Shown piece by piece: positions 6,902 to 31,693 of a stretch of DNA of 64,000 bases. How positions within the stretch are numbered: the stretch's first letter is position 1; every line of letters begins with the position of its first letter. Origin of the DNA: Erythrobacteraceae bacterium CCH12-C2 (GTDB lineage Bacteria; Pseudomonadota; Alphaproteobacteria; Sphingomonadales; Sphingomonadaceae); assembly GCA_001556995.1 (NCBI GenBank), contig LSKF01000129.1, positions 1 to 64,000 on the forward strand, given 5' to 3'. The notes below the pieces were generated by a model. The model saw nothing but the letters and a program-made list of their open reading frames with translations. It was not told where the DNA came from and did not search any database. The position numbers and the translations under genes are program-made.

Positions 6902-6955
6902 GCTTGTCGCGGCTCTCTGTGCTTCGTAAGCGACGGGGCAAGAGAGGAACCCGAC

Positions 6956-7858: not shown

Positions 7859-7927
7859 GTTAATTTGCTTTCCTACGCTAACCAATGTGGTCAATTTGGA
7901 ACGACTCGACCCAAGGAGCGCTTCCTT

Positions 7928-8341: not shown

Positions 8342-8342
8342 A

Positions 8343-9334: not shown

Positions 9335-9363
9335 GCCTTTTCTCCTGCGTCAGCCGATCTGCA

Positions 9364-10494: not shown

Positions 10495-10518
10495 GTAGTC
10501 TCTCCCGTCCGTAAAAAG

Positions 10519-10608
10519 CCCTTCCCCTTGGGGAAGGGTTGGGATGGGGGGTCTGCCGTATCGGGGGTCGCCGCCCCCACCCCCCGCCCCCTCCCCGCGG
10601 GGAGGGGG
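10519..10608. repeat. Two perfect intergenic palindromes between acyl-CoA dehydrogenase genes
   Basis: CCCTTCCCC-TT-GGGGAAGGG (10519-10538) is a 9-bp-arm palindrome, and CCCCCTCCCC-GC-GGGGAGGGGG (10587-10608) has 10-bp arms. The 48 bases between them are G- and C-runs. Such C-rich/G-rich palindromes are common intergenic repeats in sphingomonads and relatives (recollection, not searched). In the mRNA of the acyl-CoA dehydrogenase operon they could stabilise or attenuate the transcript between its first and second genes. Confidence 0.7.
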
Positions 10609-10617
10609 AGTTGAACC

Positions 10618-11811
10618 TTACAGCCCCAAGATCATCTTGGTGATGATGTTGCGCTGAATTTCGTTCGATCCGCCATAGATCGACGTCTTGCGCATGTTGA
10701 AATAGGTCGCGGCGGCGTGGCTCGCATAGTCGGGGCCGACCGGGTAGTCATTGGTGTTGTCGTTCGACACCCCGCCATGGAACGGCGCGCCATAGACGCC
10801 CACCGCTTCCAGCGTCAGTTCGGTGAGGCGCTGCTGGATTTCGGTGCCCTTGATCTTGAGGATCGAGCTTTCCGGCCCCGGCCCCTTGCCCGCCTGCTCG
10901 CCCGCGAGCGTTCGCAGCTCGGTGATTTCGAGCGCGGCGAGATCGATTTCGAGCTGGCTCACCTTGCGAGCAAAATCGAAGTCCTTGATCAGCGGCTGGC
11001 CGTCCATCGTTTCGTTGGCGGCGATTTCGCGCAGCTTTTCGACGCCGCGCTTCGAGCGCGCGACCCCGGCAATCCCTGAGCGTTCGTGGGCGAGCAGGAA
11101 CTTGGCATAGGTCCAGCCCTTGTTCTCTTGGCCCACCAAATTCTCGACCGGCACGCGCACATCCGTGAGCCAGGTCTCGTTGACCTCATAGCCGCCGTCG
11201 AGCAGCTTGATCGGCTTCACTTCAACGCCCGGCGACTTCATGTCGACGAGGATGAAGCTGATGCCTTCCTGCGCCTTCGCGGTGGGATCGGTGCGGCAGA
11301 GGAAGAAGCCCCAATCGGCGTGCTGGGCGAGCGTCGTCCAGGTCTTCTGGCCGTTGATGATGTAGTGATCGCCATCGCGCACGGCGGTGGTCTTGAGGCT
11401 GGCAAGGTCAGAGCCCGCGCCCGGCTCCGAATAGCCCTGACACCACCACACTTCGCCGCTGCGGATGCCGGGGAGGTGTTTGGCCTTCTGCTCTTCATTC
11501 CCGAACGTGTAGATCACCGGGCCGACCATCGACACGCCGAAGGGCAGCGGCATGAAGGTGTTGGCGCGGGCGTTTTCTTCCGACCAGATGTAGCGCTGGG
11601 TCGGAGTCCAGCCAGTGCCGCCGTACTCAACGGGCCATGCCGGGACCGACCAGCCCTTGGCGCCGAGGATCTTGTGCCAGGCGACCATTTCCTCGCGGCT
11701 CATATCTTCGCGCATCCCGAAATCGCCCAACTCCTTGGGGTGGTTTTCGGCAATGAAGGCGCGCACTTCGTCGCGGAAGGCCTGTTCTTCGGCGGTGAAT
11801 TCGAGATTCAT
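10618..11811 (-). CDS. Acyl-CoA dehydrogenase, PimC/large-subunit-like
   Basis: The 397-residue product is the larger partner of the downstream acyl-CoA dehydrogenase. It begins MNLEFTAEEQAFRDEVRAFI and includes GKGWSVPAWPVEYGGTGWT (written AKGWSVPAWP here), the FAD-contacting CQGYSEPGAGSDLASLKTTA and INGQKTWTT. Late in the chain are LLAHERSGIAG and the end motif YGGSNEIQRNIITKMILGL, which carries the C-terminal FAD/substrate contacts of the family. ATG 11811 is preferred over an in-frame start at 11829 because the family begins here and GGAGAGAG sits at the right distance. It is the first gene of a minus-strand operon with the PimD-like and DUF1295 genes. Confidence 0.86.
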   Translation of the reverse strand: MNLEFTAEEQAFRDEVRAFIAENHPKELGDFGMREDMSREEMVAWHKILGAKGWSVPAWPVEYGGTGWTPTQRYIWSEENARANTFMPLPFGVSMVGPVIYTFGNEEQKAKHLPGIRSGEVWWCQGYSEPGAGSDLASLKTTAVRDGDHYIINGQKTWTTLAQHADWGFFLCRTDPTAKAQEGISFILVDMKSPGVEVKPIKLLDGGYEVNETWLTDVRVPVENLVGQENKGWTYAKFLLAHERSGIAGVARSKRGVEKLREIAANETMDGQPLIKDFDFARKVSQLEIDLAALEITELRTLAGEQAGKGPGPESSILKIKGTEIQQRLTELTLEAVGVYGAPFHGGVSNDNTNDYPVGPDYASHAAATYFNMRKTSIYGGSNEIQRNIITKMILGL

Positions 11812-12101
11812 GGGGCTCTCTCCAGACAATCAGTTTTGCTTTGCCACCTCTCTTGTCACGACAGCGCCGGGACTGAAAGGGCCAATCTGAAGGAGAAGGC
11901 CCCCTGAAGTGCGGAAATTCACGGGCCACTTGGCTTGATCGCCGTCGCCCTTGCAGGCGGTGCAATCCCATGGCCGTTTCAGCGCAAGTTCCGCAACCGC
12001 CTGTCGGCCGGTTTCATACCGATCACGACCACAGACTGACAAGGCTGGCCCGATTCGCGAGAGGCCTTCCCCCTCCCAGCCATCCCCGCTAACGCGCGAC
12101 C

Positions 12102-12542
12102 ATGAGCAACTGCATCTATGTCCTCAATGGCCCCAACCTCAACCTGCTCGGCACCCGCGAGCCCGAAATCTACGGGCGCGTGACGCTCGACGAGATTGCC
12201 GGGATGCTCGAAGACCGCGCCCGCGAATTGGGGCTGGAGATCGATATGCGCCAGTCCAATCACGAAGGGATGCTGGTCGACTGGCTGCACGAGGCGCAGG
12301 CTGAAGGCGCGCGCGCGGTGCTGCTCAACGCGGCAGCCTACACCCATACGTCGATCGCCCTGCTCGATGCCATCAAGGCGATCCGCACGCCGGTGATCGA
12401 GGTTCACCTCTCCGATCCCACCACGCGCGAGCCGTTCCGCCACGTTTCTTATGTGGGCATGGCCGCCGCGCTGACGGTGCAAGGGCACGGACCGGACTCC
12501 TACCGCATCGCGTTGGAAGCGGTCGCCGCAGGCCGGGTCTGA
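12102..12542 (+). CDS. aroQ: Type II 3-dehydroquinate dehydratase
   Basis: AroQ dehydrates 3-dehydroquinate to 3-dehydroshikimate, the third step of the shikimate pathway, as a dodecamer in the cytoplasm. The 146-residue protein has the full type II set: the NGPNLNLLGTREPEIYG block with the flexible-loop Arg and catalytic Tyr, SNHEG, LNAAAYTHTS, and EVHLSDPTTREPFRHVS with the active-site His and Arg. The length is normal. It sits in a 270-bp divergent spacing from the acyl-CoA dehydrogenase operon. It is 104 bp upstream of accB on the same strand, the aroQ-accB-accC order seen in many proteobacteria, so the three may share a transcript. Confidence 0.95.
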   Translation: MSNCIYVLNGPNLNLLGTREPEIYGRVTLDEIAGMLEDRARELGLEIDMRQSNHEGMLVDWLHEAQAEGARAVLLNAAAYTHTSIALLDAIKAIRTPVIEVHLSDPTTREPFRHVSYVGMAAALTVQGHGPDSYRIALEAVAAGRV

Positions 12543-12646
12543 ATCGTCACCAGACTTTCACAATTTGCACCCTTGCCACTTGCCAGCCGCAATCTGCGTG
12601 AATAGTCCCCGCTGCTCTAGGGGCGATACAACAACAAGGGACCATC

Positions 12647-13156
12647 ATGGCAAACGACGCGGGCCAAGGCAGCAAGTCGAACGGGCGCAAATCCGGCATG
12701 AACATCGACACCGCGCTGGTGCGCGAGCTTGCCGAACTGCTCAACGAGACCGGCCTCACCGAAATCGAGGTTGAGGATGATGACCGCAAGATCCGCGTCT
12801 CGCGCGGCGCGGTCGCTGCCGCAGCGCCGGTCTATGCCGCGGCCCCTGCGCCCGCTGCTGCCGCTCCGGCCCCGGCTGCCCCTGCACCGGCGGAACCCAG
12901 CGCCCCCGCCGGCCCTGACCTCGCCAACGCCGTCAAATCGCCGATGGTCGGCACCTGCTATCTCACCCCGGAACCGGGCGCAGCGCCTTTCATTGCGGTC
13001 GGCAAGCCGGTCAAGGAAGGCGACACCCTGCTGATCGTCGAGGCCATGAAGGTCATGAACCCGATCACCGCGCCCAAATCCGGCACGGTCAGCGCGATTC
13101 TGGTCGATCACGCCCAGCCGGTCGAGTTTGATCAGCCGCTCGTGGTGATCGCGTAA
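12647..13156 (+). CDS. accB: Biotin carboxyl carrier protein of acetyl-CoA carboxylase
   Basis: BCCP carries carboxybiotin between biotin carboxylase and carboxyltransferase in the first committed step of fatty-acid synthesis. The 169-residue product has an N-terminal helical part (residues 19-55) and an Ala/Pro-rich linker (about 57-88) with many APA repeats. The C-terminal biotinyl domain carries the canonical VEAMKVM, with the biotinylated lysine at residue 135. The [12 protein letters not shown] thumb region of bacterial BCCP is present. The start ATG 12647 has AAGGGA eight bases upstream. An in-frame ATG at the [14 protein letters not shown] block (near residue 18) is an alternative start. 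accC follows four bases after the stop. Confidence 0.95.
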
Positions 13157-13160
13157 GGCC

Positions 13161-14510
13161 ATGGGAATCAAACGCATCCTGATCGCCAACCGCGGCGAGA
13201 TCGCGCTGCGCATTCACCGTGCGGCGCATGAAATGGGCATTGAGACGGTCGCGGTGCACTCCACCGCCGATGCCGACGCGATGCACGTGCGGCTCGCGGA
13301 CCACGCGGTGTGCATCGGCCCCCCGCCCGCGACCGACAGCTATCTCAACATCGCCAACATCATCTCAGCCGCCGAAATCGCGCAGTGCGACGCGATCCAC
13401 CCCGGCTATGGCTTTCTGTCGGAGAACGCCAAGTTCGCCGATATCGTCGAAGCGCACGACATCATCTGGATCGGCCCCAAGCCCGAACATATCCGCACCA
13501 TGGGCGACAAGGTCGAGGCCAAGCGCACCGCGGGCGCACTGGGCCTGCCGCTGGTGCCGGGTTCGGACGGCGCGGTCAGCGATTTCGATGAAGCGCGCCG
13601 GATCGCCAAGGACATCGGCTACCCCGTGATCATCAAGGCCGCCAGCGGCGGCGGTGGGCGCGGCATGAAGGTGTGCGAGAGCGAGGACAAGCTCGAAACC
13701 CTGATGCAGCAGGCCGGCTCCGAGGCGAAGGCCGCCTTCGGCGACGCCACGGTCTATATCGAGAAGTACCTCGGCAACCCGCGCCACATCGAATTCCAGG
13801 TGTTCGGCGATGGGCAAGGCAATGCCATCCACTTGGGTGAGCGTGATTGCTCGCTCCAGCGCCGCCACCAGAAGGTGCTCGAAGAAGCCCCCTCCCCCGT
13901 CATCACCCATGAAGAGCGCATGCGGATGGGCGAGGTCTGCTCCAAGGCGATGCGCGACATGGGTTATCGCGGCGCGGGCACGATCGAATTCCTGTGGGAG
14001 AACGGGGAGTTCTACTTCATCGAGATGAACACCCGCCTGCAGGTCGAACACCCGGTCACCGAAGCGATCACCGGGGTCGATCTGGTCCGCGAACAGATCC
14101 GCATTGCCGAGGGTAAGCCGCTATCGGTAACGCAGGAGGAACTGGAGTTTACCGGCCACGCGATTGAATGCCGGATCAACGCCGAAGACCCGTTCAACTT
14201 CGCCCCCTCGCCCGGCCTTGTGACCTATTACCACCCGGCTGGCGGGATGCATGTCCGGGTCGATAGCGGGCTTTATGCCGGCTACCGCATCCCGCCCTAT
14301 TACGATTCCATGATCGCCAAGGTGATCGTCTATGGCCGCAACCGCGAAGGCTGCATCATGCGGCTCCGGCGGGCGCTTGAGGAAATGGTGGTCGAGGGCG
14401 TGAAGACCAACATCCCGCTGCATCAGGCCTTGCTACGCCAGGACGATGTGCTGAACGGCGATTATTCGATCAAGTGGCTGGAAAAGTGGCTGGAGGAGCG
14501 CGAGGTCTGA
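13161..14510 (+). CDS. accC: Biotin carboxylase subunit of acetyl-CoA carboxylase
   Basis: AccC uses ATP and bicarbonate to carboxylate biotin on AccB. The 449-residue product opens with [18 protein letters not shown], continues with [10 protein letters not shown], and has the ATP-grasp glycine loop [13 protein letters not shown]. It then shows [20 protein letters not shown] and the catalytic-site [18 protein letters not shown]. Length and order match the family. It begins four bases after accB, so the two are co-translated in the usual accBC operon. The C-terminus ends normally at WLEEREV. Nothing unusual is visible. Confidence 0.96.
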
Positions 14511-20195: not shown

Positions 20196-20272
<77 letters not shown>

Positions 20273-20390
20273 ACATCCTGATTTCAACCAGTCTCAAACA
20301 ATCTCAAAATTTCCCCTGATCTACTGAATTTAAGTAAATTATAGGGAATCCTCCATCCCATCCTGCCTCACTCATGTTCAGGACAGCCTG

Positions 20391-20424
20391 TTGGCATGCT
20401 GGTAATTGCGTTGGTATGCTGGTA
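20391..20424 (+). repeat. Direct repeat upstream of int, candidate integrase arm sites
   Basis: TTGGCATGCTGGTA (20391-20404) and TTGGTATGCTGGTA (20411-20424) differ at one base and are exactly 20 bp apart, two helical turns. A related inverted TACCAA occurs at 20439-20444, just before the int start. Paired TTGGTA motifs also occur near the right end (31014 and 31026) and before the integrase remnant (31233 and 31245, the second as TTGGTG). Arm-type recombinase binding is inferred from spacing and location. Confidence 0.5.
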
Positions 20425-20445
20425 GGCTTCATCGCAGATACCAAC

Positions 20446-21687
20446 ATGCTGACAGACACCGCCATCCGCGCCCTCAAGGCTGACTCCCGCCCGATCAAGA
20501 AGTCGGATGGCGGCGGCCTGTTCATCTTTGTGACGCCCGAAGGCAGCAAGCTCTGGCGGCTGGCCTACCGATTCAACGGCAAGCAAAAGTTGCTTTCCGG
20601 TGGCCCCTACCCCCTCGTCAAGCTGGCCGACGCGCGGAAATGGCGCGAGGATGCCAAGGCCGACTTGCTCGCCGGACGCGATCCCAGCGCGATCCGCAGG
20701 GCAAAAAAGCGTGAGCATAAGGAAGCCAGCGAGAATTCCTTCGAGAATGTCGCCAAGGAATGGATCGAAGCGCGAAGCTGCGCCTGGTCGGAACGGTATA
20801 CCCGCGTAGTCGAAACGCGGCTGAGGGAGGACATTTTTCCCGACCTTGGGAAATTAGCGATCAGCGAGATCGACCCGCCGATGCTGCTGACTGCGCTCCG
20901 CAAGATCGAAGCGCGCGGATCGATCGAGATGGCGCACCGCGTGCGCAACTATTGCAGCGAAGTATTCCGCTTCGCCATCGCCATGGAGAAATGCCGCAGC
21001 GATCCCAGCCGTGACATTGGCCCGGCGATGAAGAAGCCGCCGCCAGTCCAACACCGCGCGAAAGTCGAGGCGAAGGACTTGCCGAGCTTCTTTGCGCGGC
21101 TCAATCAGGACGAGGGCGAGCGCATGAGCCATCTGGCTTTGCACTGGACTATCCACACGATGGTGCGCACGCAGGAAACCCGTTTCGCCGAATGGAGCGA
21201 ATTTGAGGGCCTGGACACCGACGAACCGCTCTGGCGCATTCCCGCTCAGCGCATGAAAATGCGAACCGAGCACCTGGTCCCACTGTCTCCACAGGTAGTC
21301 GCGCTTTTGCGTGAGATCGACAAGGTCAACGCATTTCGGCAAGCGGGCAACAAGCGGCTGGGGAATTTCCTGTTTCCCGTTGCCAGCAGCAAGACCGGTA
21401 CGATCAGCGAAAACCGGATGCTCGACATCATGTATCGAATCGGTCTGCGCGGCAAAGCCACGGTCCACGGGTTCCGTGGCCTTGCCAGCACTGTACTTAA
21501 TGAATCCGGCCAGTTCGAACCGGACTGGATCGAGATGCAACTCGCCCACATCCAGCGCGGCGTGCGCGCCGCCTATAACTCAGCCCGCTACCTCAACCAG
21601 CGTCGGGAAATGATGCGCTGGTGGTCGGACTATCTAGAAAAGGCCGAATTGGATGGGCTGCGTAAGTGCGCTCAGACTTTCGCCTGA
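20446..21687 (+). CDS. int: P4-type tyrosine recombinase (site-specific integrase)
   Basis: This enzyme would insert and excise the element at tRNA-Pro. The 413-residue product opens with the DUF4102-type arm-binding domain (MLTDTAIRALKADSRPIKKS, then GLFIFVTPEGSKLWRLAYRF). A core-binding helical domain follows, then the catalytic domain. Catalytic residues are seen as the first Arg in MVRTQETRFAEW, HGFRGLAST (His-x-x-Arg) and the C-terminal YNSARYLNQRREMMRWWSDYL with the nucleophilic Tyr. ATG 20446 is chosen because P4 integrases start this way; an in-frame ATG at 20374 would translate through the direct repeats upstream. Its 3' end overlaps the convergent alpA-like gene by 16 bp. Confidence 0.93.
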   Translation: MLTDTAIRALKADSRPIKKSDGGGLFIFVTPEGSKLWRLAYRFNGKQKLLSGGPYPLVKLADARKWREDAKADLLAGRDPSAIRRAKKREHKEASENSFENVAKEWIEARSCAWSERYTRVVETRLREDIFPDLGKLAISEIDPPMLLTALRKIEARGSIEMAHRVRNYCSEVFRFAIAMEKCRSDPSRDIGPAMKKPPPVQHRAKVEAKDLPSFFARLNQDEGERMSHLALHWTIHTMVRTQETRFAEWSEFEGLDTDEPLWRIPAQRMKMRTEHLVPLSPQVVALLREIDKVNAFRQAGNKRLGNFLFPVASSKTGTISENRMLDIMYRIGLRGKATVHGFRGLASTVLNESGQFEPDWIEMQLAHIQRGVRAAYNSARYLNQRREMMRWWSDYLEKAELDGLRKCAQTFA

Positions 21688-21902
21688 TCGCCACCCGTGG
21701 TCGGCGACACGTCACGCCCGTAGATCACGGGATCAGCGATCCAATCATTGATGGCCGATTCTCGCCAGCCCGCGCCATGTATGCTGATCTTCACCTGAGA
21801 GGGGAAAGTCCCCTCGGCGATCTTGCGGTACATGGTTGAGCGGGAAAGGCCGGTGCGGGCGAGAACGGTCTTGAGACGGATGATCTTGTCTGGGTTGGAC
21901 AT
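21672..21902 (-). CDS. AlpA-family DNA-binding regulator / excisionase
   Basis: The 76-residue product has the AlpA helix-turn-helix (IIRLKTVLARTGLSRSTMYR, then KIAEGTFPSQVKI) and the usual WRESAINDWI tail. P4 AlpA regulates the integrase gene; relatives act as recombination directionality factors. It is convergent with int and overlaps it by 16 bp, a common arrangement in P4-like elements. ATG 21902 fits the family length better than the in-frame ATG at 21917. It probably controls excision of this element; the operator is not identified. Confidence 0.87.
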   Translation of the reverse strand: MSNPDKIIRLKTVLARTGLSRSTMYRKIAEGTFPSQVKISIHGAGWRESAINDWIADPVIYGRDVSPTTGGDQAKV

Positions 21903-22273
21903 GGGACTTGCTTCCATTCGTTGGCAGTTTCTGGTCTCCCCTGAAGCAAAGATTGAGCAATGAACTCATTGACGCAAGATGATTTTTACATCCGATGAGC
22001 GCCATCGTAATTGCGGATAGAATGACTGCGAGAAGGATAGAAACGGATACGGAAGCGTAGAGAAGGCTACGGACGCCAGGTGTAGGTAGGTCCGTGCGGC
22101 AAGAATGCACTACTTCTGCACTACAATGCTGAACTTGCCTTTTGATATCGGCACGGCTGACGGTGATTTGCGCCTACTCTGACGGTGCCTGCGCGCGAAT
22201 CACGCAAATTCAGGAGTGTTGCGCTCGACAACCATTCTCGATATTGCAGCGGAAAAGGAATGACGTAATTTTA
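21903..22273. other. 371-bp stretch without a convincing gene; short direct repeats
   Basis: No frame here looks coding; the longer frames lack a ribosome-binding site or family features. It probably contains the alpA promoter and the 3' end of the Tad-block transcript. TGCACTAC occurs twice 11 bp apart (22106-22113 and 22117-22124), and TACGGA also recurs near 22049 and 22070. Such helical-turn-spaced repeats could be regulator or recombinase sites; this is speculation. Confidence 0.5.
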
Positions 22274-22651
22274 CTATTCAATCCGCCCCGCCGGCAGTGT
22301 TGGATTAGCGGAACCAGCTGAAGTTCCACCATTCCACCCAAAATCGTCGCTTGAGGCTCCACTCATCGGGCCATAGTCTCCCTCGACATCTGTCGATGCT
22401 CCTGCCGGAGAACCATCCGGATTTACGATGATAATTTGGCCCGGTGCCGAAGTCACTGTCGATGCGGAATCCCCGGCAGCCCATGGATTCTTGGAGACGG
22501 CGACTCGACTTGCCGTTTCTGGAGAAGCTATGGGCGCGCGGCGCAGCTTGCCATCGAGGCTGAAGCTCAAAGCGGCAGCCCCGGCTGCAATGGCAACTAC
22601 AAGCAAAAGTGTAGCCCATCGACCGAAGAGGGGAACATAATTCACCGACAA
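22274..22651 (-). CDS. Small single-pass membrane protein, unknown function
   Basis: The product (up to 125 residues) has one hydrophobic helix near its N-terminus (WATLLLVVAIAAGAAALSF). A Ser/Gly/Pro/Asp-rich tail then includes the beta-like stretch GQIIIVNPDGSPAG. I do not recognise a family. The start is uncertain: TTG 22651 or GTG 22645 would both leave the helix intact, and neither has a strong ribosome-binding site. It lies 44 bp downstream of a TadE-like gene on the same strand, so it is likely the last gene of the TadG-TadE-TadE block. An envelope role beside those proteins is a guess from position. Confidence 0.55.
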   Translation of the reverse strand: MSVNYVPLFGRWATLLLVVAIAAGAAALSFSLDGKLRRAPIASPETASRVAVSKNPWAAGDSASTVTSAPGQIIIVNPDGSPAGASTDVEGDYGPMSGASSDDFGWNGGTSAGSANPTLPAGRIE

Positions 22652-22695
22652 AGATTGCCATTGCTGATATTTTTCAATTTTGTCATTTTAGAACT

Positions 22696-23346
22696 TCAGC
22701 AACTATTGACCACAAGGCTCTGAACGTTTGTGATATCCTGATTCGTTCTTTCACGAACATTGAAGGCGCTTTCATAGCGGATTTGTTGAGGCCCCCAACC
22801 AGGTATTCCAGATACGAGGGGGATATAATTATAAGTGACTTCAACAAACATGACAGCAGTGTTCTCAGCAGATTGGATCTTATTGCCATCGGCACCCAAT
22901 CCATCTGCAAGCGAAGCATCATTAACACCGTCACCCTGTACGCCGTATCTTGGTGCGACATTCAATTCGCCATTGCACCGCTGCCAGTTGATCATTTGCC
23001 CCGCGTCTACACCTGTCTTGCCGTTGGGCTCAAGCGACGACAGCACGACCCGTCCATTTTCCTTGAAGGAAATTGAGTTGCCCATCAAATCCGCGCCCGC
23101 AAACACTTCGTAGATGTTCGACTCATCTATCCCGGTTCGAACGCGCCCGGCATTGTCTGCAACTGCAATTGCAATCTGGTTGAGTCGCATGTGCGTCATT
23201 ACCATCTGCGTAAGTTCTAGACCTCCGAATATCATCAGGAGGAGAACGGGCATCGCGAACGCCATTTCAACCATAGCCACGCCACGACTGCACGACAAAA
23301 TTCGTCGAACAATGCCGCGATGCTTTCGGGCAACAGATGTACACAT
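22696..23346 (-). CDS. TadE-like pseudopilin-family protein (first of two)
   Basis: TadE-type minor pseudopilins are inserted in the inner membrane and processed by a TadV-type prepilin peptidase in tight-adherence (Flp pilus) systems. The 216-residue product has the TadE signature RGVAMVEMAFAMPVLLLMIF (about residues 20-40): a Glu at the start of a hydrophobic helix after a basic leader. A mixed periplasmic domain follows, with NYIPLVSGIPGWG near the end, and C-terminal Cys. ATG 23346 overlaps the upstream gene's stop by one base (TGATG). Its A+T content is higher than in the flanking chromosome. No Flp pilin, ATPase or secretin gene is nearby. Confidence 0.8.
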   Translation of the reverse strand: MCTSVARKHRGIVRRILSCSRGVAMVEMAFAMPVLLLMIFGGLELTQMVMTHMRLNQIAIAVADNAGRVRTGIDESNIYEVFAGADLMGNSISFKENGRVVLSSLEPNGKTGVDAGQMINWQRCNGELNVAPRYGVQGDGVNDASLADGLGADGNKIQSAENTAVMFVEVTYNYIPLVSGIPGWGPQQIRYESAFNVRERTNQDITNVQSLVVNSC

Positions 23347-23969
23347 CACACACACACCGTTGGCGGCACTCGTTGACTGGAGTACGGCTGATTGCGAACG
23401 GCGGTCGTTGCGTGGATTCGGTATTCGGACGCCCACCCGAGCAGGGATGCCATCGGAAGAAGCCGAGGCATGGTTAGGGTCACATCATAAAGCACAACAT
23501 CGTCGGCGCCGCCAATCCCTTCGCGACCGGCCACAGAATCAAATTCTCCGTTCTCATTTAAATCTTGGAAGCAATCGCCGGGATCATATCGCCCATTATG
23601 ATTATAGTCGGTGATGAGCCTCTCACCTCGACCCACACCATTAGAATCGTAGTAACTTTTTATAACAAAATCATATTTCGCATTTCGAGCGACTGTATCT
23701 GACCGCTTTTCGACCGCACATTTAAGTTTCTCTTCAGTAGAAGCCCCTGCGCAATTTAGATCAGGACTCTCCAAAGATCCTGTCCGCGCAATGTCATTCA
23801 GTGCGCCCTGGAGCACCGAACGAGCATATGCCAGATATCCGACATCAAGTCCGCCAATGATGGCTGTTAACAAGACCGGAGCAACAAGCGCAAACTCCAC
23901 CGCGGTCACGCCCCGATTATCAGGCTTGAGTGATCTTGCCCACGAACGGATACGATTCTGAATTGCCAT
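23346..23969 (-). CDS. TadE-like pseudopilin-family protein with two calcium-loop-like motifs
   Basis: The 207-residue product opens with the TadE motif RGVTAVEFALVAPVLLTAII (residues 19-38) after a basic leader. It then has two Asp/Asn/Gly loops, DYNHNGRYDPGD and DLNENGEFD, of the DxNxNGxxD kind seen in dockerin and thrombospondin type 3 calcium sites. The C-terminal part GGADDVVLYDVTLTMPRLLP is typical of TadE-like proteins in sphingomonads (recollection). ATG 23969 has a GGACGGA stretch just upstream. It sits 11 bp after the TadG-like gene and one base before the next TadE-like gene, so all are one operon. Calcium binding is inferred from the motif only. Confidence 0.82.
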   Translation of the reverse strand: MAIQNRIRSWARSLKPDNRGVTAVEFALVAPVLLTAIIGGLDVGYLAYARSVLQGALNDIARTGSLESPDLNCAGASTEEKLKCAVEKRSDTVARNAKYDFVIKSYYDSNGVGRGERLITDYNHNGRYDPGDCFQDLNENGEFDSVAGREGIGGADDVVLYDVTLTMPRLLPMASLLGWASEYRIHATTAVRNQPYSSQRVPPTVCV

Positions 23970-23980
23970 AATCCGTCGTC

Positions 23981-25978
23981 CTATTTGACCAAACGCAGCG
24001 CGCCGATTTGGTTGCCGATCTGCCGGAATCGCTCGATCAAGCTTTCGCGGTCTGAGGAAGTGCTCGCCTGGCTCGCATTGCTGGCGCACCCTGTGAGATT
24101 GGAATTCAGTGACGTGTCGAATCCGATGACCCACACGGATGTGTTCATGTTCTTTGCCGCATTGCAGGCCATCCTGAAGCGCTGCTGATGCCGGGCGAGC
24201 TGGCTGGGGCAATTTCCTGCGCCGGTAACACGCATATCGTTTTGCTCGACGCCGTAAGCAGTAAGGACGTTGCAATAGGCTGTCTGGGCACCATCGGTCA
24301 TGAAGATGATATGACGGTTGCACGGCATGCCATTGTATTCATCACATCCATCAGCGAATACGCCTTCTGTCGAGATCATTCGCGCGCCCCAGATCATGCC
24401 GATATCATGATACGTGCCACCGACTGTCTGGAGTCCAGAAATATATCCTTCGAGTTCGTCCCGGGTCCATTCGGTTAGTCTGCGTGCCTCAGTGGGGCAT
24501 GCCCAGTAACCTTGACTGTACGCGTAGTTCTTGACCCAGCCAGTGGTGCTGGTGTTGCTTGCGCTCGAGGTCGTCGAGGTGCTCCCGGCAGTTCTCGTGT
24601 AAACGACATCGGGGAACATTGGTCGCCAACGGCTCGAATCATCGGACGGTATCAGGTTGATGTTCAGGTCCAGCGCGGCTGACGGGATCGTCATGCTAGT
24701 TCCGCCATCTATCGATGTGGTCGTATCACGCTCCTCGATGCATCCGTTCCATGAGACGGACGAGTTGCTGCCGCCAGTCGCAGCTGCGGCAAGCTGCTGA
24801 GCGTTGAAGCTTCCGCCCGGAACAGCAACCGTCCCAGTCGCATTGTTCGCAAGCAGAATGCTGCCCGTAGGCTCGATAAAGTTACTGAGGTCGTATGTGA
24901 CGTTCTGGTAGGTCCAATTGGTGAACCCGCGACGGGCGTTGTAGGTCGTCGTCTGTGTGGTCTTCCAGCGGCGGCAACTGCGGTTGGTTCCGGTCGTCAC
25001 AGGCGCGCCGGACCAGCCCCAGTTCGAGCTTGCCACATAGCTCGCGCTGCTTGAACTGCCGCGATAGGTATAGGTAAATGTCGAAGCCGGAGCGGGACCA
25101 CCGCCTGTGGAAGGTCCCGACGATCCACCCACCCAGGTTTGGCATTGCGAAGTGGAGCGCGTAGAGGCTGTCGGGCTCGACGATCCCGCTCCGGAGCTTC
25201 CGCTGTAATATTCCCACGCTCCCGCGTCTGTTGTCGGAGTGTTCGCCACCGCAACCACCTGATTGAAATTCGCCACTCGTGACGGATAGATGGCTGACGT
25301 TCGCAGATAATCCGGATTGGCGTCGTACAAGAGGTGGCCGACGTTCACCGTGCTCGAATAGGGCACGATGCCATACCGCAAACGCAGCCCCTGACTCTCA
25401 AGTTGTTGCTGAACTGGCGCCAGTTCGTCGTAGAGCGCCATCACGGCTTCTTTCAGCGAATCGATCTTCGCCACGCCATCGATTGGGTCGGCCATTGAGC
25501 CGGTTACGTCGAGCACCAATACGACATCGGTATTCACGAAGTTGAGAGAAGCATCGCATGTCACGTCGATTGGCATTCGCTCAAAGCCGAAAATCTGCAT
25601 GAATACGTTTGGTATGGATGTCTCGGCAGAAACCCGGAGGACCCCGATTTCTGGTTTCGTAACCTCGGGTTCAAATTCGGCTGTACCGAACACTCCAGCA
25701 GGAAAATTGAAGCGAAAATATTTTTGGCCAGTGGTAGTTACGTTATCGTCAAGCTCATCGTTCTTCATGACGCGCCGGGCAGCCAGCGCTGACGAATCAC
25801 AAGCGCTCTGCAATTTACTCTTGGCCATGTAGGCTCGGCTGACATCAACCGCGCTGCCGATCATCGCGATGAGCGGGATGAGTGCGATAGCGGCAATGAG
25901 CATCGTATTGCCGCGACAATCTCTCCCCAAGCGCCGCAACATCGCAGCCAGGCCGGTCATCATATACGTCGCCCCCAT
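23981..25978 (-). CDS. TadG-like protein with von Willebrand A domain split by a low-complexity insert
   Basis: The 665-residue product has a TadE/TadG-like N-terminal membrane helix (GNTMLIAAIALIPLIAMIGS, residues 23-42) followed by DVSRAYMAKSKLQSACDSSA. A vWA domain starts at VVLVLDVTGSM, with the MIDAS DxTxS at residues 157-161. The second half of the vWA fold (HIIFMTDGAQTAY, Asp about 562) comes 400 residues later instead of about 100. The spacer is very rich in Ser, Thr, Gly, Trp and Tyr. TadG-type proteins are envelope anchors of Flp pili. ATG 25978 is chosen at the start of the leader. It heads the minus-strand block; the promoter region is shared with the divergent small exported-protein gene. 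Confidence 0.82.
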   Translation of the reverse strand: MGATYMMTGLAAMLRRLGRDCRGNTMLIAAIALIPLIAMIGSAVDVSRAYMAKSKLQSACDSSALAARRVMKNDELDDNVTTTGQKYFRFNFPAGVFGTAEFEPEVTKPEIGVLRVSAETSIPNVFMQIFGFERMPIDVTCDASLNFVNTDVVLVLDVTGSMADPIDGVAKIDSLKEAVMALYDELAPVQQQLESQGLRLRYGIVPYSSTVNVGHLLYDANPDYLRTSAIYPSRVANFNQVVAVANTPTTDAGAWEYYSGSSGAGSSSPTASTRSTSQCQTWVGGSSGPSTGGGPAPASTFTYTYRGSSSSASYVASSNWGWSGAPVTTGTNRSCRRWKTTQTTTYNARRGFTNWTYQNVTYDLSNFIEPTGSILLANNATGTVAVPGGSFNAQQLAAAATGGSNSSVSWNGCIEERDTTTSIDGGTSMTIPSAALDLNINLIPSDDSSRWRPMFPDVVYTRTAGSTSTTSSASNTSTTGWVKNYAYSQGYWACPTEARRLTEWTRDELEGYISGLQTVGGTYHDIGMIWGARMISTEGVFADGCDEYNGMPCNRHIIFMTDGAQTAYCNVLTAYGVEQNDMRVTGAGNCPSQLARHQQRFRMACNAAKNMNTSVWVIGFDTSLNSNLTGCASNASQASTSSDRESLIERFRQIGNQIGALRLVK

Positions 25979-26223
25979 ACTGCTGATGCCTTTGCAGCGG
26001 AAATGAGGAAATTTTGGCCAAAAATGTTTGAGAAAACGTAAACGCAGTGCCCTTGGAACGGGTTGCGAGACACCCTGCCGACCCACTTGCTTGATGACCT
26101 ACCAGCAAGACGTGGTCTCTTGCGTAACTGATCTCATCGGAAATTATTATTCCGTTGATACTTATTTGTTAAGTGTGGATGCCGCCGGTTCGGCGGAGCA
26201 ACACTTCAGAACAAGGAACAGCC

Positions 26224-26463
26224 ATGTTTTGGCAGAAGAGTTTGAAAATGCGCGTCGCTGGCTCGTTGGCTTTGTGCGCAGTTCTCGCAGCGGTAGCTGT
26301 GGCTACCAGCCCAGCCGGTGTATGTGTCAGAAGCCAGACTGGCATACTGATCGCAAGCGCCTACTCAGAGCTCCCGTTGCGGGCTGCAAGTGCTGCACAA
26401 ATAATGTGTGCGCGCAACAATAATCAGCTAGTTCGGCAGCCATGGGCATCCGGAGGAAGATAG
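26224..26463 (+). CDS. Small exported protein, unknown
   Basis: The 79-residue frame starts at ATG 26224 with CAAGGAAC eight bases upstream. It begins with a clear signal-peptide-like stretch, MFWQKSLKMRVAGSLALCAV then LAAVAVATSPAG. The rest is short and unrecognised, with two cysteines. It is divergent from the TadG-like operon across 245 bp of A+T-rich DNA. Its 3' end almost touches the convergent traD-like gene (stop codons about 7 bp apart). It may be a co-regulated secreted factor of the Tad block or a spurious frame; the ribosome-binding site and signal favour a real gene. Confidence 0.5.
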   Translation: MFWQKSLKMRVAGSLALCAVLAAVAVATSPAGVCVRSQTGILIASAYSELPLRAASAAQIMCARNNNQLVRQPWASGGR

Positions 26464-26469
26464 CCGCGC

Positions 26470-26793
26470 TCAAAGCTCATTCGTTCGGCCTTGTTCGGCC
26501 TCGAATGACCGATTGCCCTTCCGCTTCCAGAGCACCAGCGCCTGTTCGCGTTCCTCGCCCCGCAGCTTGGCCGCGACGGTGAGAAACGCGCCGTAGAGCG
26601 CGGCGCGATCATCATCGGTGAGATCGACCAGCCCCGCCTTCACGACAAGGCCGCCCAGTTCGATCAGATGCCGCGTGCGCTCGCGCCGCTTGACCTGCCA
26701 TTCGCGCATGTCGGTTCGCGCCTTTCGTGCCTCAAGCCGATGCCGCGCCGCCGTCAAGCGGGAGAGTGCCGTCCGGTTGGCCTTGAGGTCCAT
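26470..26793 (-). CDS. traD: TraD-like conjugal transfer accessory protein
   Basis: The 107-residue product carries the TraD-family core RTRHLIELGGLVVKAGL followed by a short acidic helix, as in the small TraD encoded beside traC on Ti-type plasmids. It is highly charged and probably a relaxosome helper. ATG 26793 is chosen; it begins MDLKANRTALSRLTAARHRL, and the frame further upstream only mirrors the overlapping traC-like gene. The genes overlap by 62 bp. The pair is divergent from traA with oriT between, the same layout as traCD/traA on Agrobacterium Ti plasmids. Confidence 0.78.
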   Translation of the reverse strand: MDLKANRTALSRLTAARHRLEARKARTDMREWQVKRRERTRHLIELGGLVVKAGLVDLTDDDRAALYGAFLTVAAKLRGEEREQALVLWKRKGNRSFEAEQGRTNEL

Positions 26794-27037
26794 CACCACG
26801 CCTGCGCGCCTTGCTGTGAAAGAAGGTCGCGCCGCGCTTGCGCCACGCCTCATTCTTTTGGGCATCGCTGGTTTCCGCAATGACGAGCAGCGCACCGGCC
26901 AGCGTTTCGGCATCGGTCGCATCGGCTCCGGTCGCGATCACCAGTTCGCCGAGCTGCTGCACGCGGCGCTCCTTCAGTTGCTTGGCCTTGTCGGCGAGCG
27001 CCTTCAGTTCCGAATCGAAGTCACGGGGTTTGCGCAT
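26732..27037 (-). CDS. traC: TraC-like conjugal transfer accessory protein
   Basis: The 101-residue product has a coiled-coil-like basic start (MRKPRDFDSELKALADKAKQ), the conserved LGELVIATGADATDAETLAG block and RKRGATFFHSKARR. These mark small TraC/TraD accessory proteins that bind near oriT and help the TraA relaxase. The ATG at 27037 is preceded by GAGAACTTCG after a CTCTCAATGG leader; an in-frame ATG at 27091 would extend into the oriT-side spacer. It overlaps traD by 62 bp and faces oriT, so its promoter lies in the 27.04-27.15 kb spacer. Confidence 0.75.
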   Translation of the reverse strand: MRKPRDFDSELKALADKAKQLKERRVQQLGELVIATGADATDAETLAGALLVIAETSDAQKNEAWRKRGATFFHSKARRRGDGPQGQPDGTLPLDGGAASA

Positions 27038-27103
27038 CGAAGTTCTCCATTGAGAGGTGATGCGCTGATGATAATGTCGATGCTCTCCCAATGCTGTAGA
27101 GTC

Positions 27104-27192
27104 GTCGGGACATCCTGATACTGAATAGTCCCGAGCAGGATTTTATCATGGGAGGGCGCGCTTATACGTCGTGCCGACGTGCGCTTGGTGGC
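27104..27192. other. Origin of transfer (Ti/RSF1010-like, MOBQ nic region)
   Basis: AGGGCGCGCTTATACGTCG (27153-27171) matches the conserved nic region of Ti- and RSF1010-type oriTs (AGGGCGCA-x-TTATACGTCG, from memory). It is followed by the perfect inverted repeat ACGTCG-TGC-CGACGT (27166-27180) and GCGCTTGG. Just left of it are nested inverted repeats CGGGAC/GTCCCG (27106-27111, 27128-27133) and ATCCTG/CAGGAT (27112-27117, 27136-27141). It lies between divergent traC and traA, exactly where Ti plasmids have oriT. Confidence 0.85.
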
Positions 27193-27209
27193 GTAGATGG
27201 ATTGCCGTC

Positions 27210-30095
27210 ATGGCGATCTTCCACCTCTCCGTCAAAGTCATCAGCCGGTCGAGCGGGCGCAGCGCCGTGGCCGCCGCAGCCTATCGCGGGGCCGAGCGGC
27301 TGCATGACGAGCGGCTCGACCGCGATCATGATTTCACCAACAAGGACGGGGTCGTCCATTCCGAGGTGATGCTGCCGGAAGGTGTGCCGGAGGAATTCGC
27401 CGACCGCGAGAAACTGTGGAATGCGGTCGAGGCCGCCGAAAAGCGCAAGGACGCGCAGCTCGCCCGCGAGGTCGAATTCGCCATTCCGCGCGAACTGACC
27501 AAGGAACAGGGCATCGAGCTGGCGCGGGAGTTTGCCGAGGCCGAGTTCGTCGAAAAGGGGATGATCGCCGACCTCAATGTCCATTGGGATATTGGCGCGG
27601 ACGGCCAGCCCAAGCCCCACGCGCATGTCATGCTCACCATGCGCGAGGTCGGGAAAGACGGGTTCGGCCCGAAGGTGCGCGAGTGGAACAAGGCCGAGCT
27701 GGTGGAGCAGTGGCGCGAGCGCTGGGCCGAGCATGTCAACCAGCGCATGGCCGAACTCGATATCGATGCGCGGATCGATCACCGCAGCCTGGAGGCGCAG
27801 GGCATTGCGCTGGAGCCGCAGGACAAGATCGGCCCCGCCGCATCGCGCATGGGTGTGCGCGGGCTGGAGGCCGAACGCATCGAGGAACACCGCGCTGTCG
27901 CACAGCGCAATGGCGAGCGGATCATCGCCAATCCCAACGTCGCGCTAGACGCGATCACGCACAGCCAGGCCACCTTCACGAACCGCGACCTCGCCATGTT
28001 CGTGCATCGGCATAGCGACGGAAAAGAGCAGTTCGATTTGGCCATGAGGGCGATTCGCGGTTCGTCCGACCTTATCGCGCTGGGCAAGGACGGACGCGGC
28101 GAAGATCGGTTCACATCGCGGCAGATGATCGAGACCGAACAGCGATTGCAGCGCGCATCCGAATTGATGGCCGAGCGCGGGCGGCATGGCGTCAAAGGCA
28201 ATGGCCGGGAAGGAGCGCTGGCGCGGGCAGCGGAACGCGGCTTGATCCTGTCCGGCGAGCAGCGCGCGGCGTTCGAGCATGTGACCGATAATCGCGGCCT
28301 CAGTGTTGTCGTCGGCTATGCCGGGACCGGCAAGAGCGCGATGCTGGGCGTAGCGCGCGAGGCATGGGAATGCGCGGGCTACACCGTTCGCGGTGCGGCA
28401 CTGTCCGGCATTGCCGCCGAGGGCTTGGAGCACGGTTCGGGCATCGCCTCACGCACCATCGCCAGCCTTGAACATCAGTGGGGCCAGGGCCGCGAATTGC
28501 TCACCGCGCGCGATGTGCTGGTCATAGACGAGGCAGGCATGGTCGGCACGCGCCAGATGGAGCGCGTCCTCTCCCATGCCGCCGATGCAGGCGCGAAAGT
28601 TGTCCTGGTTGGCGACCCGCAGCAGCTCCAGGCCATCGAAGCCGGAGCTGCCTTCCGTGCGATCCATGAACGCCACGGCGGTGTCGAAATCAGCGAAGTC
28701 CGACGCCAGCACGAAGGCTGGCAGCAGGAGGCCACGCGGCACCTTGCTACCGGGCGCACCGGTCTTGCCATTCAGGCCTATGGCGAACGCGGCATGGTCC
28801 ACGCCGCTGAGACGCGGGAAGCTGCACGCGGCGAGCTGATCGAGCGCTGGGATCGCGACCGGCAGGCCAGTCCCCGTGATACGCGCATCATCCTCACTCA
28901 CACCAATGACGAGGTGCGCGAACTCAATGACGCCGCGCGCGAAAAGCTGCGCGCCAGTGGCGAACTGGGCATGGACGTGTCGATCAGCGCGACACGCGGA
29001 GAGCGTCAGTTCGCCAGCGGCGACCGCATCATGTTCCTGCGCAATGAGCGCGGGCTGGGCGTCAAGAATGGCACACTCGGCACTGTCGAGCAGGTGACGC
29101 CGCAGCGCATGACCGTGCGAACCGACGATGGCCGCAGCGTCGCCTTCGACACCAAGGACTATGCCAATCTCGATCATGGCTATGCCGCGACGATCCACAA
29201 GGCGCAAGGCATGACCGTGGACCGGGCGCATGTGCTGGCGACGCCGGGCATGGACAGTCATGGTGCCTATGTGGCGATGTCCCGCCACCGTGACGGCCTT
29301 GCCCTGCACTATGGGCGCGACGACTTCGCCGATCAGTCGAAACTTGTCCGCACCCTGAGCCGCGAGCGCGGCAAGGACATGGCCAGCGACTACAAGCCCG
29401 AGCAGCGGTTTGCCGAACGGCGCGGCATCACCTTCCGCGAACGCATCGTGGCGATTGCGCGGCAGGTGCCAGAGCGGGCGAAGTCCATCTTCGCCGGTTT
29501 CCGTCCCCAGGCCAACCGGCTCGAAGTTCTGCCGACCGATCAGGCTGGCCCGACCGATCAGCGCCGGGCGGTCGAACGCTATGCGCGTACTGCCAACGAC
29601 ATCGAGCAGATGCGCGAACAGGGATTGCCGGTCCTGCCACACCAGCGCGACGCGCTGGAGAAGGCCGGGAAGGCGCTCGACGCGATCCGGCCCCATGCTG
29701 CCGCAGACCTCGCCAGCGCCTTGCAGCGCCAGCCCTCGCTCGCCCTTGAGGCCGCCGATGGCCGCACTCAGGGCGCAATGCGTGCCATGCAGCTTGAAGC
29801 CGAAATCCGCGTCGATCCCGCGCAGCGTGCAGATCGCTTTGTCAGCGACTGGCAGCGGCTCGGGCAGGCACGACAGGCCATGCAGCGCGATGGTGACACC
29901 AATGGCGCGCAGAGGCTCACCAACCGAATGACGGACATGGCGAAGGGGCTGGAGCGCGACGCGCAGGTCGAATCCCTGCTGTGCAGCCGCACGCGCGAGC
30001 TTGGCATCAAGACAGAACTCGGTCGCGATCTGGCCCGCGACCTTGCTGCTTCCGTGACCATGGAGCGGAGCCGGTCAATCGGCATGGGCCTGTAG
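27210..30095 (+). CDS. traA: TraA-type conjugative relaxase-helicase (MOBQ)
   Basis: TraA nicks one oriT strand, stays bound to the 5' end and unwinds the DNA for transfer. The 961-residue product begins with the MobA/MobL relaxase domain: MAIFHLSVKVISRSSGRSAV (catalytic region), AAYRGAERLHDER and the metal-binding HAHVMLTMREV (HxH). A RecD-like helicase follows with Walker A VVGYAGTGKSAML, Walker B LVIDEAGMVGTRQM, VVLVGDPQQLQAIEAG, and the UvrD-C-like YAATIHKAQGMTVDRAHVL. ATG 27210 is chosen for the canonical MAIFH start; an in-frame ATG at 27171 lies inside the oriT repeat. It ends in LGIKTELGRDLARDLAASV. Full length and intact. Confidence 0.93.
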   Translation: MAIFHLSVKVISRSSGRSAVAAAAYRGAERLHDERLDRDHDFTNKDGVVHSEVMLPEGVPEEFADREKLWNAVEAAEKRKDAQLAREVEFAIPRELTKEQGIELAREFAEAEFVEKGMIADLNVHWDIGADGQPKPHAHVMLTMREVGKDGFGPKVREWNKAELVEQWRERWAEHVNQRMAELDIDARIDHRSLEAQGIALEPQDKIGPAASRMGVRGLEAERIEEHRAVAQRNGERIIANPNVALDAITHSQATFTNRDLAMFVHRHSDGKEQFDLAMRAIRGSSDLIALGKDGRGEDRFTSRQMIETEQRLQRASELMAERGRHGVKGNGREGALARAAERGLILSGEQRAAFEHVTDNRGLSVVVGYAGTGKSAMLGVAREAWECAGYTVRGAALSGIAAEGLEHGSGIASRTIASLEHQWGQGRELLTARDVLVIDEAGMVGTRQMERVLSHAADAGAKVVLVGDPQQLQAIEAGAAFRAIHERHGGVEISEVRRQHEGWQQEATRHLATGRTGLAIQAYGERGMVHAAETREAARGELIERWDRDRQASPRDTRIILTHTNDEVRELNDAAREKLRASGELGMDVSISATRGERQFASGDRIMFLRNERGLGVKNGTLGTVEQVTPQRMTVRTDDGRSVAFDTKDYANLDHGYAATIHKAQGMTVDRAHVLATPGMDSHGAYVAMSRHRDGLALHYGRDDFADQSKLVRTLSRERGKDMASDYKPEQRFAERRGITFRERIVAIARQVPERAKSIFAGFRPQANRLEVLPTDQAGPTDQRRAVERYARTANDIEQMREQGLPVLPHQRDALEKAGKALDAIRPHAAADLASALQRQPSLALEAADGRTQGAMRAMQLEAEIRVDPAQRADRFVSDWQRLGQARQAMQRDGDTNGAQRLTNRMTDMAKGLERDAQVESLLCSRTRELGIKTELGRDLARDLAASVTMERSRSIGMGL

Positions 30096-30105
30096 GAGAT
30101 GTGAG

Positions 30106-30876
30106 ATGGATACCGATACCGATGACGTGGAACTGACCCTGGACCTTGAGCCGGAGCCGGAACCCGACCCGGCCACCCCGGATTCCGCTGGCGATCCCGC
30201 TGCCGAGGCTTTCGCCCGCCTGGAAGGTGAACTGGCCCTGATGCGTCGGGCGGTCCAGCACCTTGCCGTCGAACGTGCGGACATTGTCATTCCCGACTAT
30301 GGCCCGACCCTGACCGACATGGCCAAGCGGATGGGCGCGATTAGCGAGAGCCTGAAGGGCATGGCTGGTCATCCCGCGATGCAGATGACCCCCGACAGCG
30401 TCGGCAATCGGATAGCCGCCGCAGCCGAAGCCGCGCGGCGCAGCGATCAGGACAGGATCAGCCAGGCCCGGAGTGACTTGAACCACGCCGCCCAGGAAAT
30501 GCGCAACGTCACCGCCCATGCGCGCACTGCCGCCGAACAGCGGCAGCAGCTCTACCAGGTGGCAGGCGGAGCCGTGCTGGCGGGCATCCTGCTATGGTCT
30601 TTCCTCCCCGGCACCATTGCCCGTGCCATGCCCGAAAGCTGGCACTGGCCGGAGCGCATGGCAGCGCGGCTGGTGGGCGCATCCTCTCGCTGGGACGCAG
30701 GCGCACGGATGATGCAAAGTGATAGCCCCGATGCATGGAATGCACTGGTGCAGGCCGCTGACATCCAGCGTGACAATCGCGATGTCATTGACGCTTGCCG
30801 GAAAACCGCCGCAACTTCTCAGCAGCCGGTGCGATGCACCGTCAGGATTCGGGCAGAACTCCGACGGCAAACGTGA
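30106..30876 (+). CDS. DUF6118 family protein
   Basis: The 256-residue product has an acidic Pro/Glu/Asp-rich N-terminus, a long helical middle (about 60-145), one hydrophobic segment (AGGAVLAGILLWSFLPG, about 157-173) and MPESWHWPERMAARLVGAS. This is the pattern I associate with DUF6118 proteins encoded next to traA on sphingomonad and rhizobial mobile elements. It starts 10 bp after traA with GGAG before the ATG, so it is in the traA operon. A membrane-linked role in transfer is plausible but unproven. The last ~50 residues are soluble with two cysteines. Confidence 0.75.
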   Translation: MDTDTDDVELTLDLEPEPEPDPATPDSAGDPAAEAFARLEGELALMRRAVQHLAVERADIVIPDYGPTLTDMAKRMGAISESLKGMAGHPAMQMTPDSVGNRIAAAAEAARRSDQDRISQARSDLNHAAQEMRNVTAHARTAAEQRQQLYQVAGGAVLAGILLWSFLPGTIARAMPESWHWPERMAARLVGASSRWDAGARMMQSDSPDAWNALVQAADIQRDNRDVIDACRKTAATSQQPVRCTVRIRAELRRQT

Positions 30877-31091: not shown

Positions 31092-31108
31092 TCCTGTCTC
31101 CCCGACCA
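31092..31108 (+). repeat. attR core
   Basis: TCCTGTCTCCCCGACCA is identical to the 17 bases at the 3' end of tRNA-Pro(UGG) (20256-20272). It is not part of a tRNA here: upstream bases are A+T-rich (ATATACGCAT). It marks the right junction of the 10.85-kb element. Confidence 0.9.
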
Positions 31109-31279: not shown

Positions 31280-31443
31280 ATCCTTAGCGATGCGAAAATC
31301 CGCAGCCTTAAGGCTCGCCCCAAACCCGCCAGGCACGCCGACTGGGGAAGCTTGTTTCCCTTTTTGAACCCAGACGGCAAGAAGTCTGGCGTCTCAGCTA
31401 CCGCTATTGCGGCAAGCAAAAATTGCTCGCCGATGGCCAGTAG
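31280..31443 (+). pseudogene. Remnant of a P4-type integrase (N-terminal part, frameshifted)
   Basis: From 31280 the reading LSDAKIRSLKARPKPARHAD then WGSLFPFLNPDGKK aligns with the start of the intact integrase (LTDTAIRALKA..., GLFIFVTPEGSK). After one frameshift near 31380 the next frame reads VWRLSYRYCGKQKLLADG, matching LWRLAYRFNGKQKLLSGG. A TAG follows at 31441-31443, and no later part of the gene is recognisable. The expected start codon is ATC instead of ATG. It is clearly a dead gene from a different integrase lineage, not a copy of the neighbouring one. Confidence 0.85.
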
Positions 31444-31693
31444 CCGCACACCGTTTTCTCCCGGCGGGATCACTCTCAGGGGGCCATGTCTGTTCCATCG
31501 CAAGGAACAGGATTGAGGTCGCTTGACGAAGCGTCCGCTCGCACCACTGCATCAATTCCAACTCGTCAAGCTACGCGGGCCTACCGAGGCCTCCACTCAA
31601 TCGATGTTCAATCACTCACGGGAAAATGGTGAGATCGCGGGGAGCGTTTCGCCTGCCGCTGTCTGAACTGTGAAGATGTGAGTCAACCTAGCG

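Follow-up and report, generated by a model that had tools for sequence, protein, structure and literature searches.

A stretch of 64,000 nt from Erythrobacteraceae bacterium CCH12-C2 (contig LSKF01000129.1, positions 1–64,000, here called the window) contains an integrative mobilizable element (IME) of 10.8 kb. Its cargo is a single minus-strand operon at positions 22274–25978 that encodes a TadG protein, two TadE proteins (TadE1 and TadE2) and a small membrane protein. This operon probably supplies Tad (Flp, type IVc) pili with a mobile "tip cassette", which the IME transports as cargo and which works through the Tad machine that is resident in the host. What the analysis shows is the gene content, the mobility of the element, the architecture predicted for TadG, the action of purifying selection on the three pilin genes and a near-universal Tad marker in potential hosts. 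A reading of the DNA made from its letters alone (the sequence-only reading) had proposed an undescribed system, which is not upheld: the TadG-TadE-TadE family is common and has published precedents, and only its carriage by an IME is new, together with the maintenance of this cargo by selection and the finding that the same slot elsewhere often holds defence genes. No mobile TadG-TadE-TadE set or tip cassette was recognised by title or abstract among the papers listed by full-text searches of the open PubMed Central (PMC) library. Tad pili are widespread organelles for attachment, sensing and predation, and exchangeable tip complexes determine what they do, as has been argued recently. If a tip complex does travel by itself, pilus specificity could be gained horizontally in one step and the machine need not be transferred.

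The element lies between two exact copies of the 17-bp sequence TCCTGTCTCCCCGACCA. The order of its genes is tyrosine integrase, AlpA, the Tad block, two overlapping TraD open reading frames (ORFs), a MobQ/TraA relaxase-helicase and a DUF6118 protein, as follows:

20196–20272, plus strand: tRNA-Pro(TGG), the integration target (ARAGORN).
20256–20272: attachment repeat on the integrase side, 17 bp, exact, equal to the 3' end of tRNA-Pro (repeat comparison).
20374–21687, plus strand: tyrosine integrase with Arm-DNA-bind_3, Phage_int_M and Phage_integrase domains (Pfam; 96% amino acid (aa) identity to the copy of a relative described below).
21672–21917, minus strand: AlpA-type regulator/excisionase (PF05930; PHROG excisionase).
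22274–22651, minus strand: small protein with one transmembrane (TM) segment, fourth gene of the operon, TTG start (ORF; position in relatives).
22696–23346, minus strand: TadE2, minor pilin-like, site G|VAMVE (PF07811, 34.1 bits; start set by TGATG coupling).
23346–23969, minus strand: TadE1, minor pilin-like, site G|VTAVE, DxNxNG loops (PF07811, 47.2 bits; alignment; model with pLDDT 86).
23981–25978, minus strand: TadG, pilin stalk and a von Willebrand factor A (vWA) domain interrupted by a large insert, with a putative metal ion-dependent adhesion site (MIDAS) (PF13400, 53.3 bits; alignment; model; fold matches).
26470–26922, minus strand: TraD ORF (mobilization), overlapping the next TraD ORF in a different frame (PF06412).
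26732–27091, minus strand: TraD ORF (mobilization) (PF06412).
27171–30095, plus strand: MobQ/TraA relaxase-helicase (MobA_MobL in Pfam; NCBIfam MobQ and TraA above cut-off).
30106–30876, plus strand: DUF6118 protein of the transfer module (PF19613).
31092–31108: attachment repeat on the relaxase side (repeat comparison).

The gene set of the element was taken as 11 ORFs, all scanned with Pfam, of which one (26173–26463) is doubtful. An integrase and attachment repeats are present at a tRNA gene, a relaxase is encoded, and none of the 11 ORFs matches a type IV secretion system gene in Pfam. These features identify the carrier of the Tad block as an IME, which is predicted to be transferred with the help of a conjugative system. 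The exact repeats, together with the independent insertion of a relative elsewhere, bear out the earlier claim that the block is the cargo of a mobile element. The relative is in a metagenome-assembled genome (MAG) of Novosphingobium (genome G001, locus L001) and is 19,469 bp long. Identities between the two elements are 96% for the integrase, 98–99% for AlpA, 96% for TadG and 92% for the relaxase, and the element DNA is 89–97% identical where it can be aligned. The insertion sites differ in the two hosts, as the L001 element is placed within a TPR-sulfotransferase gene whose rejoined flanks give one ORF of 547 aa. The flanks of the two elements are unmatched, save for an 80-base integrase-like piece to the right of the window attachment repeat (attR) that is similar to the relative's integrase. 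Chromosomal glpD shows 74% DNA identity between the window and G001 (about 1.07 of 1.54 kb aligned), and the nearest named proteins to the window GlpD, among the matches listed, are from Erythrobacter and Porphyrobacter (80–83%), with metagenome proteins at no more than 90%. Because the element is 89–97% identical while the flanks and glpD diverge, the sequence comparison indicates that the element has recently crossed between lineages.

Viral origin was considered and is not supported, with no TadG relatives confirmed in IMG/VR contigs (30 pattern matches) and none in 50,697 phage records. Among six element proteins compared with PHROGs, only the integrase and AlpA have matches. Six proteins of the element have no PADLOC match (for the four operon proteins at E ≤ 0.01) that would place them in a defence family. 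To the right of the attachment repeat (31280–31446) there are two integrase arm-domain pieces of 34–35 aa that are 46–47% identical; a further element that once occupied this tRNA-Pro site probably left them behind.

The four ORFs of the operon are tightly spaced. TadG and TadE1 are separated by 11 bp, TadE1 and TadE2 overlap by one base (TGATG), and 44 bp separate TadE2 from the small gene, so that the coupled operon described in the sequence-only reading is confirmed at its place. TadG (665 aa), TadE1 (207 aa) and TadE2 (216 aa) were scanned with upstream-extended starts, and their scores are above the Pfam cut-offs of 22.3 bits (Tad, PF13400) and 22.9 bits (TadE, PF07811). All three pilin proteins thus belong to the TadE and TadG families, in agreement with the earlier view that the block supplies minor pilins only. 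The small protein (125 aa, one TM) has no Pfam match above cut-off and no NCBIfam match; its sequence is weakly conserved, and its position and shape are kept in relatives. Also as first described, machine genes are missing: among the 11 ORFs there are no Pfam matches above cut-off to a secretin, ATPase, platform protein, RcpC or prepilin peptidase, and the sole Flp_Fap match is below cut-off and lies on the N-terminus of TadE1 itself. The element's 11 ORFs therefore do not make up a complete Tad/Flp system. The block is A+T-rich as claimed, with a GC content of 54.4% compared to 65.4% in the transfer genes (26470–30876), 59.7% in int-alpA and 64.8–65.3% in host DNA; beyond the element, stretches of 3705 bp taken in 50-bp steps go down to 61.6% and no lower.

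TadG is predicted to begin with a pilin-like helix, followed by the vWA domain. The putative MIDAS consists of D157, T159, S161, T522 and D562, as judged from the alignment, structure model and fold matches, and the best structural analogues include SpaC, Mfa5 and PilB. The class III prepilin peptidase site G-x4-E is present in TadE1 as G20 and E25, which are invariant in 34 of 34 aligned sequences; by motif search, with guessed start codons, it is found in 69 of 74 TadE1 and 59 of 72 TadE2 sequences. Loops of the D-x-N-x-N-G type are present in 64 of the 74 TadE1 sequences versus 5 of the 72 TadE2 sequences, and such loops possibly bind calcium.

TadG, TadE1 and TadE2 have been under purifying selection since the window and L001 copies parted. 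The ratios of nonsynonymous to synonymous substitution (dN/dS) are 0.11, 0.28 and 0.23, respectively, compared with 0.11 in the relaxase, and there are no internal stops. The small gene is without such constraint (dN/dS 1.86, a value that comes from few changes and a hand-set start).

The Tad machine was traced by its marker RcpC (PF16976). Within the genus of the relative, 183 of 195 genomes have it, carrier G001 included, as do 29 of 30 chosen TadG-bearing genomes and eight of the nine genus genomes with a close TadG; the one exception in each of these last two sets is the MAG G013. The close-copy carriers G001, G084 and G105 all have it. The sequence-only reading had named the lack of a Tad system in hosts as a finding that would speak against it, and such a lack is not seen in the genomes searched. 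Since TadG and RcpC are both nearly universal, their co-occurrence signifies opportunity and not dependence. The idea that the block supplies alternative minor subunits to a resident Tad system is thus retained as the best reading, with published precedents (PMC12075869, PMC12607857, PMC10934763).

How the proteins form a complex, reach the tip by way of the resident machine and affect the phenotype is inferred as follows. TadE1, TadE2 and TadG would be minor pilins that are exported and then processed by the host prepilin peptidase. A three-part TadG-TadE1-TadE2 complex would prime and cap a pilus that is made of host Flp pilin by the host Tad machine, with the vWA domain of TadG placed at the tip. 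The recipient cell may then build pili with an altered tip binding specificity, and adhesion, surface sensing or pilus-dependent phage sensitivity would be changed.

A tip cassette that borrows the peptidase, pilin and motor of its host is the simplest reading because of precedents in Myxococcus, Caulobacter and Bradyrhizobium. In Caulobacter, CpaL is predicted to be at the tip of the Tad pilus with CpaJ and CpaK (PMC12607857). The likeness is one of architecture: a vWA minor pilin with a pilin stalk, a beta-rich insert that splits the vWA domain, a MIDAS of the form DxTxS..T..D, two further minor pilins, and best structural analogues that overlap (SpaC, Mfa5, PilB). The window differs in that TadG and the two TadEs share one operon with a fourth protein, small and membrane-bound, and in that this operon rides on a mobile element in which no Tad machine gene was recognised. 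In Myxococcus xanthus, four three-gene minor-pilin clusters (Kil Tip1–Tip4) are interchangeable tips of one Tad pilus, and three of the four are outside the kil clusters (PMC12075869). The element likewise has three minor pilin genes away from a Tad machine, as do its relatives among the matches listed; the Kil tips differ in being nearly restricted to Myxococcales, in having a role in predation and in not being called mobile in the passages seen (PMC12075869). In Bradyrhizobium, normal root adhesion requires an unlinked tadGEF set, according to PMC10934763. Here also tadG and two minor pilin genes are located off the main tad/cpa clusters and their loss impaired root adhesion, but mobile carriage is not described in the passages seen and the adhesion effect is known without a link to a pilus (PMC10934763).

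TadG-TadE-TadE sets are found throughout the sphingomonads. In a scan of GTDB genomes the best 80 of 168 TadG relatives were taken as loci, 18 of them close and 62 distant (L019–L080, TadG 32–38% identical to the window TadG), and both TadEs are beside TadG in 77 of the 80. Of 60 TadG loci from searches of the genus and family, 58 have TadE1 and 58 have TadE2 within about 1.5 kb. Genomes with a TadG match at E ≤ 0.001, in some cases weak or partial, number 178 among the 195 of the relative's genus and 343 among 397 taken from the family. At least three flanking genes are shared with another locus by 51 of the 62 distant loci (with up to 29 others), and the remaining 11 have no such partner. 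The orphan TadG-TadE-TadE set is an ordinary chromosomal gene set in sphingomonads. The absence of a machine, which had appeared remarkable in the sequence-only reading, is the rule, and what that reading had itself named as a refutation, a block that is ordinary chromosomal in most relatives, is what is found. The orphan sets have the same three protein families as the window, but mostly shared chromosomal sites and a host-like composition, whereas the window copy is mobile and AT-rich. A+T-richness is not supported as a family trait: the GC content at third codon positions is more than 5 points under that of the flanks, whose ORFs were called mechanically, in one of 18 close loci (only L001, the IME copy) and one of 62 distant loci.

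A close TadG (≥ 60%) is present in nine of 195 genus genomes, where other full-length matches, among those listed, are at 40% or less. A sharply separate close clade thus holds within the genus but fails across the family, where full-length identities form a gradient (66, 61, 55, 52, 55, 50, 46, 44, 44, 40% and lower; partial matches up to 58%); TadG of L012, L014–L016 and L018 is at 43–50%. Five Qipengyuania copies have 2–6 flanking genes in common pairwise and look chromosomal. The Novosphingobium copies L007, L008, L013 and L115 have 1–5 in common, except for L013 and L115 with none. L001, L002, L004, L081 and L114 have 0–1 in common with any given other. The last two of these are plasmid-borne close copies, on the PP1Y plasmid Lpl (typed conjugative) and the 1.16-Mb replicon of THN1. 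By ORF scan, 11 of 18 close loci (L002–L010, L013, L017) have a short one-TM ORF downstream of TadE2, as does L081 by annotation; the scan finds none in L011, L012, L014–L016 and L018. Double TadG-TadE-TadE sets are also present at L040, L054, L057, L074 and L079.

The abundance of chromosomal sets raises the alternative that the operon was captured by chance by the IME and travels as a passenger without benefit, which we consider unlikely. Several observations nevertheless speak for a passenger. Chance capture would be easy where chromosomal sets with all three genes are so common, and the cargo slot is highly variable. IME carriage is rare: a relaxase and TraD are within 10 kb of TadG in one of 80 loci, L001 only, and TraD is near TadG in one of the 60 genus and family loci (L082), which is the same site. 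In the relative, an insertion sequence (IS) interrupts the operon ahead of the fourth gene and displaces the one-TM ORF. Opposed to the passenger explanation are the purifying selection on all three pilin genes since the two copies parted, the two close relatives on plasmids, and capture on more than one occasion, as a second bounded IME in G001 has two TadG-TadE-TadE operons of a different lineage beside traD.

The distances between TadG and RcpC were compared by eye among the matches listed. Full-length TadG and RcpC are on one contig in nine of the 30 chosen genomes, 82 kb (G004) to more than 2 Mb apart, and on separate contigs in the other 20 that have RcpC. The closest full-length pair in the genus genomes is 73 kb apart (G051), and the distance is 85–102 kb in G105, G054, G179, G082, G095, G117, G053 and G162. 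A spacing as constant as this, 73–102 kb in several genomes, hints that one TadG copy has a conserved place on the chromosome. A Tad machine linked closely to full-length TadG was considered and is not supported, as none of the same-contig pairs listed is closer than 73 kb. Some minor pilins are linked to the machine: in G011 a TadG match that is weak and partial lies 2.1 kb away from RcpC, and G024 has TadE matches at 2–4 kb from its second RcpC. Several full-length TadGs accompany a single RcpC match in G105 (four) and in G213, G051, G179 and G195 (three each). A tip cassette predicts that one machine accepts foreign tips.

An envelope-anchored adhesin or sensor that is made of TadG with both TadEs and needs no Tad pilus is an improbable alternative. 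The wide separation from RcpC would fit such a complex, and so would a putative appendage operon of another type in the relative's IME, by which the theme may be surface adhesion. Against it, the invariant G-x4-E of TadE1 is suggestive of a prepilin peptidase, the Tad machine is what the unlinked clusters of minor pilins in Myxococcus work through (PMC12075869), and CpaL affects Tad pili of Caulobacter (PMC12607857).

The slot that holds the tip cassette was compared with that of sister elements. Relatives of the relaxase (E ≤ 0.001, some partial) are present in 115 of 195 genus genomes, and the Novosphingobium MobQ IMEs with AlpA have the same relaxase (70–94% identical), TraD, DUF6118 and AlpA around one slot. 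They differ in its content. TadG is absent between TraD and AlpA in 11 elements (L152, L155, L160, L161, L164, L167, L168, L170, L172, L175 and L176), and the sampled slots hold restriction-modification (RM), Cas9/Cas1, SngABC or unassigned genes. Of 135 mechanically called ORFs in 16 slots, 30 were compared with PADLOC; they come from 10 slots, of which six have defence matches:

L155 slot, 3264–13317 (G105:C1): type I RM with an embedded PrrC-like gene, and AbiEii.
L161 slot: type I RM.
L152 slot: methyltransferase and specificity proteins.
L164 slot, 8041–12303 (G176:C8): Cas9-like and Cas1-like genes, with a methyltransferase upstream.
L172 slot: SngABC.
L175 slot: weak kinase match.

PADLOC gave no match in the slots of L160, L167, L168 and L176 (one to three proteins each). 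These four slots hold large ORFs without a PADLOC match, which are candidate new defence genes. TadG-TadE-TadE is present in three of 14 elements with a readable slot, the window and two in G001; this sample is small and not independent, as two are in one genome and were found through the TadG search there. Carriage of TadG-TadE-TadE by IMEs is rare.

The defence genes in sister slots raise the question of whether a change of tip protects against pilus-dependent phages. As a speculative extension that we consider doubtful, sphingomonad IMEs might trade tip cassettes, sometimes with another appendage operon, in a slot that is otherwise used for RM, Cas9 or other defence. An incoming tip would replace the resident tip, and pilus-dependent phages could no longer hold on to a pilus that still serves the cell, a form of receptor switching by mobile element.

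The L001 slot additionally contains an IS and six opposite-strand ORFs that resemble a secreted appendage system, and relatives of five of the six adjoin TraD in L162. The second element of G001 is 29.2 kb between exact 16-bp repeats just outside int and DUF6118. After TraD it has two convergent TadG-TadE-TadE operons of the distant type (32–33% to the window TadG; L119:6518–13426), and it also holds two appendage-like operons. An internal TraD remnant suggests that this element is a composite. In the putative appendage operons (L001:15365–21218, L119:15151–18688 and L121:3673–13263), genes for small secreted proteins stand together with those for a chaperone-like protein and for a large one with an SdrD_B-like end. 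Assignment of the extra L001 operon to the chaperone-usher class was considered; PapD and usher families are unmatched in the scans, which for NCBIfam covered the chaperone-like and usher-like proteins, and the term putative appendage operon is used. DUF4402 is present in two scanned L119 proteins and SdrD_B in two large proteins (just below cut-off in L001). The operons possibly represent an undescribed chaperone-usher-like appendage carried by such elements.

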